This document shows, piece after piece, positions 1 through 5,584 of a DNA stretch of 12,639 nt. The number at the start of each line of letters is the position of its first letter. Position 1 is the first letter of the stretch. The position numbers and the translations under genes were made by a program. Origin of the DNA: Proteobacteria bacterium UBA1844 (GTDB lineage Bacteria > Pseudomonadota > Gammaproteobacteria > Steroidobacterales > Woeseiaceae); NCBI GenBank assembly GCA_002338615.1, contig DDIS01000152.1, positions 18,467-31,105 on the forward strand, given 5' to 3'. The notes below the pieces were generated by a model. The model did no database searches. It was given only the letters and a program-made list of their open reading frames with translations, and was not told where the DNA came from.

Positions 1-860
1 GAGCCGAGCGAGCCGATACCAAAATGGCTTGCAACAACCTGGCTGCATAGCACGGCGCCACACGGGATGCCGCCACCCAGTGCCTTGGCCATGGTCAGGA
101 TGTCGGGCTCGATCCCGTACCTTTGCATGGCGAAGAACTCGCCGCTGCGGCCCATACCACTTTGCACTTCGTCCGCAATCAAAAGTGCCGCGTGACGCTT
201 GCTCGCCGTCCGCAGCGTATCAAGGAACGCGGGTGCCAGGTCGTACGCGCCGGCGACTCCCTGCACGGGCTCGACAATAACCGCCGCAACGCTGTCGTCG
301 ATCATAGCCTTTGCCGCATCAGAGTCGTCGCGCGGAATGAAGGCTACTGCAAACGGCAGGTTTGGAAAGCCGTACCAGGCGGACGAGTTCCAGGTGACGG
401 CTCCGGCCGCCGCGGTACGGCCGTGAAAGCCACCGGTCACGGCCAGTATTTTTTTCCGTCCGGTCGCCACGCAGGCCATGCGCAGTGCGTTTTCATTGGC
501 CTCCGCGCCGGAATTGACGAAGAATGCGCGGGCCATGTTTTCTGGTGCGACCGCGAGCAGGGCTTCCGCTGCCTGTGCCCGTATCCCGAGCGCAACCGCG
601 TTGCTCTGGAACAAAAGGCTTCGCGCCTGGTGTTCAATGGCTGAAGAAAGCTTCGGGTGGCTGTAGCCGAGTGCTGCTACCGCGTGTCCGCCATAGAGAT
701 CAAGGATATGCCGACCATCGTCAGTGATGATGTCGCAGCCGCTCGCAGCCACCGGCACGAAGGGCAGTTGCCCGTAAACAGGCAGCATGCTCGCCGTTTC
801 GCGCGTAGCCGGATCTTGTGGCTCGTGCAGGGCTTGCTTATCCGTCAAGTGAAAATTCAT
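1..860 (-). CDS. argD: Class III PLP aminotransferase, ArgD-type (acetylornithine aminotransferase), C-terminus beyond the window
   Basis: Likely the cytosolic PLP enzyme that transaminates N-acyl-glutamate semialdehyde to N-acylornithine, the step after ArgC. The 286 visible residues include the fold-type I hallmarks: NSGAEANE (116-123) for cofactor phosphate binding, D230 in the IADEVQ stretch that contacts the pyridine nitrogen, and K259 in TMAKALGGG, the Schiff-base lysine. The LDLYGGHAV stretch (53-61) resembles the ArgD found in Bacteroidetes argG-argC-argD clusters rather than E. coli ArgD/AstC. The start is the ATG at 860, 28 nt after the argC stop; the ribosome binding site is weak (GAG). 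About 110-120 residues are missing past the left edge, so this is not a broken gene. It is the last visible gene of the arginine operon. Related ornithine or succinylornithine aminotransferases look alike; the neighbours favour arginine synthesis. Confidence 0.87.
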   Translation of the reverse strand, partial: MNFHLTDKQALHEPQDPATRETASMLPVYGQLPFVPVAASGCDIITDDGRHILDLYGGHAVAALGYSHPKLSSAIEHQARSLLFQSNAVALGIRAQAAEALLAVAPENMARAFFVNSGAEANENALRMACVATGRKKILAVTGGFHGRTAAAGAVTWNSSAWYGFPNLPFAVAFIPRDDSDAAKAMIDDSVAAVIVEPVQGVAGAYDLAPAFLDTLRTASKRHAALLIADEVQSGMGRSGEFFAMQRYGIEPDILTMAKALGGGIPCGAVLCSQVVASHFGIGSLG

Positions 861-888: not shown

Positions 889-1956
889 TCAAGTCCAGCC
901 CGGCGCGGGCGTGTGCAGGCCAGTCGTTTCAGGTAAGTCCCAAAGGCGGTTCATCCACTGCATGGCGCCGCCTGCGGCACCTTTTACCAGGTTATCAATG
1001 GCGCACAGCACAACTATCGTACCGTCGTGCATTGCAGCGCTGACCTGGCAACGGTTGCTCGCTACAACATCTTTCAGCCGCGGCGGCGCTGCCAGCACGT
1101 CGACAAAAGACGCATTTGCGTAAGCTTTGTCGAACGCGGTGCGGACACTTTCCGGGCTGGCCGCGTCGCTTGCCCGTGCCTGGAGAGTGACATAAATGCC
1201 ACGTGCGAATGGCCCCGAGTGGGGCACGAAATTAAGTTTCGTGCGTACGCCCGTGGCCTGTTCGAGTTGGGCGATAATTTCGGGCCCGTGCCGGTGCAGG
1301 AGTGCTTTGTAGGCATACAGGTTGCTGTTGCGCTCGGGGTGGTGGGTGCCGGTTTGTGGCGTGCGCCCGGCACCCGTGCTGCCGGTAATGCCCGATACGA
1401 ACAAATCGTTTTCACACAGGCCCGCAGCAAGCAGCGGCATGGCCGCGAGCAGCACAGCACTTGCGAAGCAACCCGGGTGGCCAGCGTGCCGGGCGGGTGT
1501 GCCATTCAATAACTCCGGTACCGCACTCACGAACTCAGTAAGCAGCTCGGGTGCTCCATGCGCGGTGCCGTATACCGCCTCGAAGGCGGCTTGATCCACA
1601 TAACGAAAATCGGCGGAGGTATCGACCACGTGCAGATCGATATTCTTGGTGGCGGCCGCGGCCATGGCCGCCTTGATTAGTACCGCCGTCGTGCCGTGCG
1701 GCGCCGCAGAGAACAGTGCAAGTTTTGCATTGGCCGGAATACTATCCAGCCATTCATCGTACGCGACCAGCCGGGTGTCCGGATAAGCACTCGCAAGGTG
1801 GGGAAATATGCCTGCAATCCGATCGCCGGCGCGACTGGCGGACACCGCAGCCGCAAGCTCGAACACCGGATGCATGGCAAGCAAACGCAGGAACTCACCA
1901 CCGACGTATCCGGTTGCGCCGAAGACAATTGCCGGTATCGTCGTTGCCGCGCTCAT
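889..1956 (-). CDS. argC: N-acetyl-gamma-glutamyl-phosphate reductase
   Basis: NADPH-dependent cytosolic reductase converting N-acetylglutamyl-phosphate to the semialdehyde in arginine synthesis. The 355-residue protein starts with a Rossmann fingerprint GATGYVGG (13-20). It carries the thioester-forming cysteine C163 in HPGCFASA and a candidate catalytic histidine H246 in VPHSGPFARG, and ends with the family signature KGAAGGAMQWMNRLWDLPE (325-343). Length is normal (about 310-350). The motif is HPGCF instead of the usual NPGC(Y/F), a variation just before the nucleophile. The start codon overlaps the stop of the upstream P-loop gene as ATGA (4 nt), implying translational coupling. The aminotransferase for the next step follows 28 nt later. 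Confidence 0.95.
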   Translation of the reverse strand: MSAATTIPAIVFGATGYVGGEFLRLLAMHPVFELAAAVSASRAGDRIAGIFPHLASAYPDTRLVAYDEWLDSIPANAKLALFSAAPHGTTAVLIKAAMAAAATKNIDLHVVDTSADFRYVDQAAFEAVYGTAHGAPELLTEFVSAVPELLNGTPARHAGHPGCFASAVLLAAMPLLAAGLCENDLFVSGITGSTGAGRTPQTGTHHPERNSNLYAYKALLHRHGPEIIAQLEQATGVRTKLNFVPHSGPFARGIYVTLQARASDAASPESVRTAFDKAYANASFVDVLAAPPRLKDVVASNRCQVSAAMHDGTIVVLCAIDNLVKGAAGGAMQWMNRLWDLPETTGLHTPAPGWT

Positions 1957-3008
1957 TTCCCTGTCTCTTTCAGTGCGGCTGCAATTTTGTCGCCGAGCGC
2001 GATACCGTTGCTAAGTGCATTAATGGCCGTCAGCCCAAGGTGCTCAGCGATCTGATCGACGCCGACTGCGTTGTCAGTGGCGGGCCCGGTAACCGCGGTC
2101 GGCTCGATGCCATACTGTTCGCGCAGAATTTTGGCGCCGCCCCAGGCGGAGACGGGATCGTTTGCGCACAGCACGACCGCGGTCAAAGCATCGCGAATGG
2201 CGGCGTCGGACAGAATTGCCGCGACGCCGTAGGCACCGATAAGCCCGTCACCCAGTTCGAGCACAATGACATCCGGCTGGTTCGCGGCAAGGTCGCTGAG
2301 TAATGCGCGGGTAAGGGCCGGACCATTTACGGCAGTGGTCGTAACAATGCCGAGATCCGAAAAGATCATCGTTTTGCGCGCGCCGGCATCTTCCATTGCG
2401 TTGATATCCCGGCGCAGCGAAACGCCCGTTGCCTTGCAGGCGGCAATCTCCATGCCCAGCTGCCGCAGGCGCCCGACAATTGCACAGGCCGCTGCAGTTT
2501 TGCCTGAATCCATACACGTACCTGCCAGCGCAATAACCGGGATACCCTGCGTGTTGAGCACGGCGTTCAGGTCGAACTTGCGCGCGCCGGCGCGGGCAGG
2601 CACACCGATGCGTTCGCCGAGGTACGGAAAATGCAGCACGCTTCCCAGTACCTCGCAATTGAAAGGAGGGCCAACATCCGGGTTGGCGGAGTCGCACAAT
2701 CCAAGCACGCCGCCAATATTTAGCATTTGTACGCTATCGCCGACCGCCAATGTAACGGGCAGGTGTCCCGAGTATCCGCGCAGCGCTTTGCGATGCCCGA
2801 GTGCGCCGACCACGATATCGCCTGCTACGACGGTCGCCATACGACCCGAGGTCAGCTCCAGCTGGTTGTAGCGGGTCTTGTTGTTCAATACGCGAACCGC
2901 AATGAGGATACCTTCCTCGCAGGGTATGTCCTGTGAGAGCCTGAGCTCGCGACCCACATTATTGTGTTGCGCGACCGAGGCGATCTTGTCGACGACGATG
3001 GATTTCAT
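1953..3008 (-). CDS. BioD/DUF1611-like P-loop protein of unknown function embedded in the arginine operon
   Basis: Function not recognised. The 351-residue protein has two parts. Residues 1 to about 145 are rich in beta-strand-like stretches (VVAGDIVVGALG, 60-71; LNIGGVLG, 96-103), have no signal peptide and match no domain I know. Residues about 155-350 form a P-loop domain with GTCMDSGKT (163-171), the G-T-x4-G-K-T layout of dethiobiotin synthetase (BioD) and DUF1611 proteins. It also has K192 in CKATG, placed like the BioD KPVxSG lysine, D201, and ELGDG (251-255), placed like the BioD EGAGG loop. An ATP-dependent ligase- or kinase-like reaction is therefore plausible but inferred. It overlaps argG by 1 nt (TAATG) and argC by 4 nt (ATGA), so it is co-translated with enzymes on both sides and very likely serves arginine synthesis or its regulation. 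GGTGG upstream of the ATG is the likely ribosome binding site. Confidence 0.85.
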   Translation of the reverse strand: MKSIVVDKIASVAQHNNVGRELRLSQDIPCEEGILIAVRVLNNKTRYNQLELTSGRMATVVAGDIVVGALGHRKALRGYSGHLPVTLAVGDSVQMLNIGGVLGLCDSANPDVGPPFNCEVLGSVLHFPYLGERIGVPARAGARKFDLNAVLNTQGIPVIALAGTCMDSGKTAAACAIVGRLRQLGMEIAACKATGVSLRRDINAMEDAGARKTMIFSDLGIVTTTAVNGPALTRALLSDLAANQPDVIVLELGDGLIGAYGVAAILSDAAIRDALTAVVLCANDPVSAWGGAKILREQYGIEPTAVTGPATDNAVGVDQIAEHLGLTAINALSNGIALGDKIAAALKETGK

Positions 3009-4234
3009 TATTTGCCACCGCCCGCTGCATTACGAGCAGCCCTGGTTTGTAACGATCCGGGCAAGGACAGTATGCGGGAAAAGCCCAGCGCATCGGCTGC
3101 GGTCCATTCTCCGGCTGCCTCACCGTACACACCCCTGCTTGCGGCAAGCAGCGAATAATCGGACGTTACGCCTTCAACAAACAGGTTGCCGGGCCTGAGT
3201 GAAAACCTGACGCGTCCACTAACGCGCTGTTGCGACGATTCGAGCAGGGCTTCAATATTCCGGCACACAAGATCGAGCTGCTTGCCCTCATGTATAAGAT
3301 CACCATAAGTATGGGCGAGCGAATCCTTGACACGCGTCTGTGCGGCGCTCAACACCAGCTTTTCCAGTTCACGATGCGCCGTAATCAGGCTGATCGCAGC
3401 AGGTGCTTCGAACGCAACTCGACCTTTGGTGCCCAGTACGGTATCGCCGAGGTGAATGCCACGACCAATGGCGTAGCTGCCGGCAAGCATTTCGAGTCGC
3501 TCAATCAATTGCACCGGTCCCTCGGCCACGTCGTCCAGCGCGATCGGTATGCCCTGGTCGAAGTCGATAGTGTGGGTGCTCGCCGCCACTGATTTCACGA
3601 ACGCATTTTGTGACAAGACCCACGCGTCTTCCGGCAGTGCGCATTCTGACGTCAGCGTTTCGCGTCCACCTATGGTGATGCCCCAGAGCCCGCGATTGAT
3701 CGAGTAATTTGAGCCTTGTGCGGGCAAAGGCATACCGCGCTTTTTCAGAAACGCGAGCTGTTCATCGCGTACCCAGTTGTTGTCACGTACGGGAGCCAGG
3801 ATCTCGAGGCGCGGATTAAGTGTCCGCAGCGCAACTTCGAAGCGAACCTGGTCGTTGCCGGCCGCGGTGCAGCCGTGCGCTACAGTACTGGCATGCCGGT
3901 CTGTCGCAATTTTCGCCAGGCGCTCTGCTTGCAGACCCCGTTCTGCACCAACGCACAGCGGATACGCGTTGCCGCGCAGCACATTGCCCGCGATCAGGTA
4001 ACGGATCACCTTGTCAAAAAACTCCTGTTTGCAGTCGAGCAAGATGTGTTCGGCCGCACCCAGCGACAGCGCACGTTCCTCGAGCGCCGTTGCTGCCTTG
4101 TCGTCGATGCCACCGGTATCAATAGTCGCCGTGATGACCTCACGACCATAGGTTTCTTTTAGCCACGGCACGCAAAAGGACGTGTCGAGACCACCTGAAA
4201 ACGCGAGAATGATTGGGGATTTGTCGCTTTGCAC
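3008..4234 (-). CDS. argG: Argininosuccinate synthase
   Basis: Joins citrulline and aspartate using ATP to make argininosuccinate in the cytosol. The 408-residue protein has the N-type ATP pyrophosphatase loop AFSGGLDTS (11-19), the citrulline/aspartate region HGCTAAGNDQVRFE (120-133, where family members commonly read HGCTGKGNDQVRFE) and YSINRGLWG (177-185) before a GGRETLTSE stretch. The RGLWG/GGRE form and the C-terminal segment ending in WTAADALGFSRIL resemble the subtype in Xanthomonas and Bacteroidetes arginine clusters, rather than E. coli ArgG. The start is GTG at 4234, with GGAG 6 nt upstream; this keeps the short lead before the P-loop seen in the family. It lies 59 nt after argR and its stop overlaps the next ATG as TAATG. 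Confidence 0.95.
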   Translation of the reverse strand: MQSDKSPIILAFSGGLDTSFCVPWLKETYGREVITATIDTGGIDDKAATALEERALSLGAAEHILLDCKQEFFDKVIRYLIAGNVLRGNAYPLCVGAERGLQAERLAKIATDRHASTVAHGCTAAGNDQVRFEVALRTLNPRLEILAPVRDNNWVRDEQLAFLKKRGMPLPAQGSNYSINRGLWGITIGGRETLTSECALPEDAWVLSQNAFVKSVAASTHTIDFDQGIPIALDDVAEGPVQLIERLEMLAGSYAIGRGIHLGDTVLGTKGRVAFEAPAAISLITAHRELEKLVLSAAQTRVKDSLAHTYGDLIHEGKQLDLVCRNIEALLESSQQRVSGRVRFSLRPGNLFVEGVTSDYSLLAASRGVYGEAAGEWTAADALGFSRILSLPGSLQTRAARNAAGGGK

Positions 4235-4293: not shown

Positions 4294-4746
4294 CTAGCGA
4301 CCCAGCGAACGCTCAATTCTCGCTAACAGGTGTTTTTGGCCGCTGGCCGATGCAGTCGCGATAAACACGGTGTCATCGCCCCCTATGTTGCCGACAATTT
4401 CGGGCCAGTCGCTGCGATCAAATGCAAGCGCGACGCGTTGCGCCGCCCCGATGGCGGTCCGGATGACCAAAAGATGCGGGCCAGCAGCCGCTGCGCCGCG
4501 CAACAGCGAGGAAACCTGCAACAGCTCGTCAAGCTGCTGGTCCGCTTTGTTCGGTACGGCGTATCCGCTTGCTGTCTTCACGGCACCGAGGCCGCGCAGG
4601 TCACGACTGACGCTCGACTGGGTCACGCTGAAGCCGCGTGCATCGAGCTCGCGAACCAGCATTCGCTGGGTGCTGACCAGGCCTTCGGCCAGCAACTCGC
4701 GGATTGTGTCGCGGCGCGATTGCTGTTCGTCATGAAGATTCGACAC
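4294..4746 (-). CDS. argR: Arginine repressor ArgR, probable GTG start
   Basis: Hexameric arginine-responsive repressor. With the GTG at 4746 the protein has 150 residues, close to E. coli ArgR (156). It has an N-terminal winged helix with the recognition-helix motif SSVSRDLRGLG (44-54) and a C-terminal oligomerisation and arginine-binding domain with GAAQRVALAFD (100-110) and GGDDTVFIA (122-130). A longer reading from ATG 4779 adds 11 residues. I prefer GTG because AAGAGA lies about 8-10 nt upstream of it, and because the predicted promoter puts the transcription start near 4774, after that ATG. The gene is first in the operon, 59 nt before argG, so repressor and enzymes share one transcript and ArgR very probably represses itself. 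The family is certain; the exact start is inferred. Confidence 0.92.
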   Translation of the reverse strand: MSNLHDEQQSRRDTIRELLAEGLVSTQRMLVRELDARGFSVTQSSVSRDLRGLGAVKTASGYAVPNKADQQLDELLQVSSLLRGAAAAGPHLLVIRTAIGAAQRVALAFDRSDWPEIVGNIGGDDTVFIATASASGQKHLLARIERSLGR

Positions 4747-4760
4747 GGGGAGGTTCTCTT

Positions 4761-4778
4761 TGTGCATAAATATGCGCA
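4761..4778. promoter_or_regulatory. argO: ARG-box-like operator (box 1)
   Basis: The 18 bp sequence contains TGCAT-AAAT-ATGCG, a near-perfect palindrome fitting the ArgR consensus layout (TGAAT-4 A/T-ATTCA) with C in place of one A. It covers the predicted transcription start of argR. A second, poorer copy (TGCAT-ATTT-CGTCA, 4793-4810) covers the -35 element. Centre-to-centre distance is 32 bp rather than the 21 bp usual in E. coli pairs, so the second box is doubtful. Confidence 0.5.
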
Positions 4779-4780
4779 TA

Positions 4781-4846: not shown

Positions 4847-4874
4847 TTGAGACTGCACCCGTACGCGTTACACT
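4847..4874 (+). promoter_or_regulatory. Predicted sigma70 promoter of the carboxylesterase gene
   Basis: TTGAGA (4847-4852) and TACACT (4869-4874) are separated by 16 nt, followed by a leader of roughly 20 nt with AGAGG before the ATG at 4904. It is divergent from the argR promoter, whose -35 element lies about 40 bp away. Built only from consensus resemblance. Confidence 0.4.
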
Positions 4875-4903
4875 GCGCCGCTTTGCGTTGCAGAGGTTGT
4901 GCC

Positions 4904-5584
4904 ATGTCCTTGCTGGATGCTGTAGTTGTAGAAACCGGGCCTGAACCGTTAGGTGCCGTCATCTGGTTGCACGGTCTCGGGGCCGACGGTCACGATTTCG
5001 AGGCCATTATTCCCGAGTTGCAATTGCCGGATTCGATGCCCTTGCGCTTCGTATTTCCGCATGCACCGGTCAGGCCCGTCACCATCAACGGCGGGATGGC
5101 AATGCGCGCCTGGTACGATATACGTAGCTTTGATGCCGAAGGCCGTGCGGACAGCGACGGCGTCACCGAGAGCAGCGCGGCGCTGGACGATCTTATCGCG
5201 CGCGAGGTTGCGCGCGGCATACCGACTACCAGGATCGTACTCGCGGGATTTTCACAGGGCGGGGCAGTGGTTTTACATAATGCCCTGCGGGCCAGTGAGC
5301 GCCTCGCTGGCTTGCTGGCCCTGTCGACCTACCTGCCGTTGCCAAACGGCTTTACTGACGAGGTCACGAACAATCGCAATTCACAGGACCGGTCCCTGCC
5401 GATTTTCATGGCGCACGGCACAGAGGATCCGATGGTGCCGTTGCAGGCGGGAATCGAGACGGCGACCACATTGCGCGCCGCGGGCTTTACCGTTGAGTGG
5501 CACGAATATCCGATGGCACATGGTATTTGTCCGGCAGAAATTGTCGATATTCGCAACTGGCTGCTCGGAATCTATGCGGGCTGA
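4904..5584 (+). CDS. Carboxylesterase / lysophospholipase-type serine hydrolase (EstB/YpfH family)
   Basis: A 226-residue cytosolic alpha/beta hydrolase that would cleave small carboxylic esters or lysophospholipids; the natural substrate is unknown. It shows the family order: VIWLHGLGADGHDF (19-32) with the oxyanion-hole HGLGADG, RFVFPHAP (48-55), the nucleophile elbow GFSQGG with S117, HGTEDPMVP with D175, and MAHG with H206, giving a complete Ser-Asp-His triad. No signal peptide. The ATG at 4904 is preferred over an upstream ATG at 4847 because AGAGG precedes it by 7 nt, the family begins this way, and the upstream ATG sits in the predicted -35 element. It diverges from argR, and its last 13 nt overlap the end of the convergent NRDE-family gene. 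No functional tie to arginine is evident. Confidence 0.9.
   Translation: MSLLDAVVVETGPEPLGAVIWLHGLGADGHDFEAIIPELQLPDSMPLRFVFPHAPVRPVTINGGMAMRAWYDIRSFDAEGRADSDGVTESSAALDDLIAREVARGIPTTRIVLAGFSQGGAVVLHNALRASERLAGLLALSTYLPLPNGFTDEVTNNRNSQDRSLPIFMAHGTEDPMVPLQAGIETATTLRAAGFTVEWHEYPMAHGICPAEIVDIRNWLLGIYAG

Follow-up and report, generated by a model that had tools for sequence, protein, structure and literature searches.

We analysed a 12,639-nucleotide stretch of the genome of Proteobacteria bacterium UBA1844 (Woeseiaceae; contig DDIS01000152.1, positions 18,467 to 31,105; G000:C26:18467-31105), referred to below as the window. It contains part of an arginine operon in which a gene that we call X lies between argG and argC. 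The 351-residue open reading frame reported in the initial annotation, with its GTCMDSGKT, CKATG (K192) and ELGDG motifs, is confirmed and lies on the minus strand. Its features are as follows.

1953..3008, minus strand: X, 351 residues with an ATG start; predicted L-glutamate N-succinyltransferase, a DUF1611/DgcN-like P-loop protein
2559..3008, minus strand: β-rich N-terminal domain of X (residues 1–150), from the secondary structure of the full-length AlphaFold2 (AF2) model
2496..2522, minus strand: P-loop GTCMDSGKT of X (residues 163–171); G163, T164, C165, M166, G169, K170 and T171 are invariant in 34 aligned orthologues
2424..2438, minus strand: CKATG of X (residues 191–195) with K192; K192, A193, T194 and G195 are invariant in the same 34
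2244..2258, minus strand: ELGDG of X (residues 251–255); E251, G253, D254 and G255 are invariant in the same 34

When the paralogue family of X was added to the orthologues, G163, T164, M166, G169, K170 and T171 of the P-loop, K192, T194 and G195 of CKATG, and E251 and G253 of ELGDG were also invariant. Residues 1–150 have no Pfam match, to DUF1611_N or otherwise, and, modelled alone, gave a poor predicted local distance difference test score (pLDDT 67).

The cluster has the order argR-argG-X-argC-argD-argF′-argB-argH, and its downstream part lies in locus L002.

4294..4779, minus strand: argR, which heads the cluster; over cut-off for two Pfam domains, NCBIfam argR_whole at 103 bits (under the cut-off of 130)
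3008..4234, minus strand: argG, argininosuccinate synthase; 297 bits to TIGR00032 (cut-off 268); its stop overlaps the start of X
889..1956, minus strand: argC; 286 bits to TIGR01850 (cut-off 234); its start overlaps the stop of X
1..860, minus strand: 5′ part of argD, named from sequence and not from the family scan; continues beyond the window in L002, partly N-masked
L002 17974-16967, same strand as X: transcarbamylase argF′, downstream and outside the window
L002 16970-16041, same strand as X: argB, 309 residues, downstream and outside the window
L002 16044-14848, same strand as X: argH, downstream and outside the window

Both junctions of X are as initially annotated. At the argG/X junction (minus strand, AATAATGAA), the argG TAA and the X ATG have one A in common within TAATG; at the X/argC junction (minus strand, AAATGAGC), the argC ATG and the X TGA overlap by 4 bases in ATGA. 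At the argR start, window positions 4761-4778 form an imperfect palindrome, TGTGCATAAATATGCGCA, with three mismatches to an ARG box. This match is weak; a scan for ArgR boxes gave two weak matches, with ~0.4 expected.

The arginine neighbourhood is not confined to this genome, as had initially been considered possible: arg genes adjoin X in 94 loci of the order and in 4 outside it. The 94 comprise 80 loci kept from 118 related ones, titled mostly as Woeseiaceae, Gammaproteobacteria or Proteobacteria metagenome-assembled genomes (MAGs), and 14 from other families of the order. In all of them argG, X and argC are consecutive, with at most 191 bases between BLAST matches; the full operon order is present in 78, and the missing genes of the other 16 fall past a contig end. 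All 94 X sequences are distinct, with identity down to 59%. A class-wide sample of 369 genomes contained X outside the order in G384, G137, G331 and G215 (43–49% identity), again as argG-X-argC, which is preceded in three by argD-argF-argB-argH, the fourth contig being short; in locus L213, also outside the order, ~570 bases separate X and argC. Because the neighbourhood recurs in 94/94 loci with 94 different X sequences, and in four loci outside the order, we rejected a chance association. X sequences from within and outside the order group together in a clade that excludes the paralogues (SH-aLRT 95; quick tree, in which two outgroup branches are long). Bacteria with X in the arginine operon are common marine-sediment bacteria. 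One orthologue is named Natronospira proteinivora, and a literature search on cultured hosts of X found nothing relevant. The X homologue P0266, named from a Holophagaceae MAG, is 62% identical to the Natronospira protein; its presence there may reflect gene transfer or mis-binning.

Among the 99 genomes of the order, 77 contain X and 14 contain the NAT domain (PF04768) of a fused N-acetylglutamate synthase (NAGS); none has both and 8 have neither. The X count is of matches with at least 59% identity, fragments included (G006, G026, G035, G049), and leaves out G024, G063, G066 and G088, which have only a ~30% identical paralogue (raw tally 81). By family, X occurs in 8 and NAT in 6, and Fisher p for the exclusion is 8e-12 (genomes) and 3.3e-4 (families), with relatedness ignored. 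The PF04768 search matched 0/14 control genomes. ArgJ was found in 0/99 genomes of the order (10/14 control genomes were positive), and classical ArgA over cut-off likewise in 0/99; ArgA passes its cut-off in 21 of 30 other Gammaproteobacteria, which were hand-picked from the class list and are not a random sample. In the four X genomes outside the order, the ArgA model matched the ArgB part only, plus a 32-bit GNAT stretch in G331. Given the exclusion of X and NAGS, the lack of ArgJ and the lack of over-cut-off ArgA, X therefore fills the N-acylglutamate synthase position. An acylating step replacing ArgA, one of the functions first suggested for X, is thus well supported, also by the DUF1611/DgcN fold described below, whereas replacement of ArgB is not supported, an ArgB being encoded in the same operon. 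Of the arg genes whose absence the initial annotation proposed to check in X genomes, argJ and over-cut-off argA are absent, argB is present in the operon, and ArgE-type proteins over cut-off are present in 8/77. An ArgB kinase match was not seen in X genomes G009 and G026, both fragmented assemblies.

No ArgB-like kinase match was found in the eight genomes with neither X nor NAT, so the pathway may be missing there or the genomes may be incomplete. G068, G081 and G093 (f9) and G072, G085 and G096 (f13) gave no match for X, NAT, ArgB-like kinase or transcarbamylase, and arginine auxotrophy of these two families is possible.

The NAGS-kinase of sister families in the order, with a vertebrate-like NAT domain of the Xanthomonas type, fills the same first step as that proposed for X. 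It differs from X in this fused domain and in occurring with an ArgE-like gene; the transcarbamylase is of the acetyl type in the 8 operons read. The C-NAGS of Corynebacterium, likened to X by description alone, is another NAGS that the relevant section of PMC4490483 presents as having no sequence relation to classical ones, but it belongs to the acetyl pathway.

The transcarbamylase of the operon points to the acyl group. Its best PDB matches are N-acetylornithine carbamoyltransferases, followed by N-succinylornithine ones. According to a review (PMC4581275), the acetyl enzyme carries Glu92, Asn185 and Lys302 and the succinyl enzyme A/S/P/V/Q, P and V/I/E at positions 92, 185 and 302. Our placing of positions 92 and 185 agrees with the numbering of chain 3kzc, and in the alignments to the PDB matches chain variants differ only at the positions taken as 92 and 302. 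The source-genome argF′ has A, P and V, as predicted by this rule for an N-succinyl-L-ornithine transcarbamylase. The signature is readable in 84/94 X loci, with A-P-V in 74, A-P-A in 7 and a partial signature in 3 (distinct counts, the 115 rows first read having contained repeats), and the three outside-order X loci that hold a transcarbamylase have P-P-E, P-P-E and V-P-E. Eight of the 14 NAT operons were read, with E-N-K in seven and E-N-Q in one. Since the diagnostic residues split in this way, the succinyl signature accompanies X and the acetyl signature accompanies NAGS-kinase, and the intermediates of the X operon are, judging from these residues, probably succinylated. The initial annotation could not see this, as the window does not reach the transcarbamylase.

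We propose that X is a non-GNAT succinyl-CoA:L-glutamate N-succinyltransferase that takes over from ArgA and starts a succinylated route to arginine. We infer the reaction, the donor and the desuccinylase, and give this reading a probability of roughly 0.74; the evidence is stronger for an acylating first-step role of X than for the donor or for which acyl group is transferred. X would move succinyl, most likely from succinyl-CoA held at the P-loop domain, to the α-amino group of L-glutamate and so form N-succinylglutamate. Succinylated intermediates would next be processed by ArgB, ArgC and ArgD, and the operon transcarbamylase would yield N-succinylcitrulline. After desuccinylation, probably by DapE, ArgG and ArgH would complete arginine.

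What is new is that a familiar type of reaction is proposed for a lineage and a protein fold in which it was not expected; the usual first-step enzymes have other folds. BT3761, the probable N-succinylglutamate synthase of Bacteroides, is GNAT-type. A succinylated arginine route has been described in Bacteroides (PMC7311316); the gene for glutamate succinylation had not been identified according to the pertinent section of a 2015 review (PMC4490483), and GapMind later put forward BT3761 (PMC7311316). BT3761 shares with X the proposed reaction and a succinyl-type transcarbamylase, but it is more than 50% identical to the NAGS Cabys_1732, according to PMC7311316, whereas X is a DUF1611-type P-loop protein. 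If correct, our proposal names the first arginine enzyme of Woeseiaceae and of several further families of Gammaproteobacteria, whose X genomes could otherwise be mistaken for arginine auxotrophs in automated annotation, and it provides a testable function for a branch of DUF1611-like proteins. It would also extend the succinylated pathway beyond Bacteroidetes, the group for which the literature consulted describes it, and show that the committed step was replaced non-homologously while the protecting group changed as well.

The predicted X fold matches DUF1611 proteins including DgcN (PDB 7xrj), as well as BioD and CTP synthase, and the model has the fold of the solved DUF1611 proteins. PF07755 (DUF1611) itself gave no Pfam match in X at E up to 10. 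Many members of the paralogue family carry precomputed PF07755, and X aligns with this family in profile–profile comparison (probability 99.9, 293 columns, 30% identity), which indicates homology to PF07755-carrying proteins; UniRef calls two X orthologues DUF1611 domain-containing. Membership in MobB was rejected (17.1 bits in Pfam, cut-off 26.6; under cut-off in both libraries), as was membership in TnpB (sub-threshold or no matches) and in BioD (no dethiobiotin synthetase model among the matches listed). BioD, dethiobiotin synthetase, also differs in being without the additional ~150-residue N-terminal domain. No GNAT NAT or ArgJ domain was matched in X by Pfam and NCBIfam scans, and PDB sequence searches found nothing significant, whether started from X, from its profiles or from one paralogue. 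Among the papers listed in an open-licence library, none linked DUF1611 to arginine in its title or abstract.

Among the structure matches listed, the closest functionally named acyl-transferring protein is DgcN, titled N-acetyltransferase in 7xrj. DgcN acylates D-glutamate with acetyl-CoA, making N-acetyl-glutamate. It is 14% identical to X over the aligned part and belongs to a D-amino-acid pathway, whereas X lies in an arg operon and would join L-glutamate to succinyl instead of D-glutamate to acetyl. The D-amino-acid gene neighbourhood typical of DgcN was not found around X, which adjoins arg genes in 94/94 loci; DgcA itself was not searched for. Woeseiales appear as notable dgcN carriers in the part of a metagenome survey that deals with them (PMC12363236); X or its paralogue could account for some of these genes.

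The BioD-like fold would also suit a ligase that uses ATP to couple free succinate (or acetate) to L-glutamate by way of an acyl phosphate, as in the amide-forming enzymes with the BioD fold. This alternative, which yields the same product and partly overlaps the acetyl reading below, is unlikely, given that DgcN is titled N-acetyltransferase and uses acetyl-CoA. The title and product of DgcN suggest that X might acetylate glutamate, with the transcarbamylase residues misreporting the acyl group. We regard this as improbable, because X loci agree in the diagnostic residues, and the eight NAT operons read have different ones.

Our proposal of a succinyltransferase needs a separate deacylase, for which DapE of the lysine pathway is probably the economical candidate. 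Each of 16 X genomes examined has at least one M20 protein, none of those listed being in the arg cluster. In G094 (100% complete) the single M20 protein at E 1e-6 is DapE, and the best M20 proteins of G000, G065 and G074 are also DapE. Two observations complicate the picture: an unlinked ArgE-type protein over cut-off occurs in 8/77 X genomes (G006, G022, G046, G061, G070, G076, G083, G089), and several f1 genomes have other M20 proteins at 134–147 bits. AstE (PF04952) was rejected as the desuccinylase, with 0/16 X genomes positive (1/14 controls positive). The neighbouring esterase (4847-5584), matched in 76/94 X loci, was rejected as well: it is still there at sites without the operon (L189-L192), and no match to it was seen in the two f15 loci examined.

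An ArgJ-like transacylase, moving succinyl from N-succinylcitrulline to L-glutamate in a cyclic pathway, would need no separate deacylase. X operons are without NAGS and without an ArgE-type deacylase, whereas in each of the 14 NAT genomes the contig with the kinase part also carries an ArgE-like M20 gene (129–184 bits, TIGR01892), and a single DUF1611-type transacylase could have replaced both ArgA and ArgE, with ATP or CoA serving only to prime or regulate; we consider either form of this idea very unlikely. DapE is available, with no other M20 protein found in G094 (100% complete), a purely cyclic route would still require a priming reaction, and no DUF1611 relative is known to act as a transacylase. 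A regulator, an ATP or arginine sensor (as initially suggested) or another accessory operon protein is the least probable reading of all: nothing but the P-loop and the gene overlaps suggests it, the NAGS exclusion and the missing first enzyme would be left unexplained, and argR is already in the cluster.

In four NAT genomes (G064, G091, G088, G075; f5, f16), the likeliest reading is that the X operon was lost once the acetyl pathway had been gained. The site that in the source genome reads esterase-[arg operon]-polA-yihA holds only a lone transcarbamylase in these four, 44–49% identical, and the NAGS-kinase operon, a different one, is on a separate contig. The lone transcarbamylases beside polA (L189:8073-9062, L190:7026-8015, L191:1976-2956, L192:5937-6917) have A/V/K/R at 92, P at 185 and S/G at 302, and are perhaps repurposed relics. 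In L193:4984-9451, an M20 peptidase, an ornithine transcarbamylase-like (OTC-like) gene, an apparent carbamate kinase and an apparent ammonia-lyase, named by eye, stand in a row resembling a ygeW-type transcarbamylase locus; the M20-transcarbamylase pair is present in part of f1.

We also observed X paralogues in a three-gene cassette of a flavin-reductase-like protein, an M20 peptidase and a DUF1611-like protein (L141:4825-7662, L142:3103-5946, L144:4067-6884, L145:5195-8036, L146:5926-8866, L155:491-3352, L157:1042-3906; the family scan of neighbours covers L142). This cassette may be an amino-acid acylation/deacylation system.
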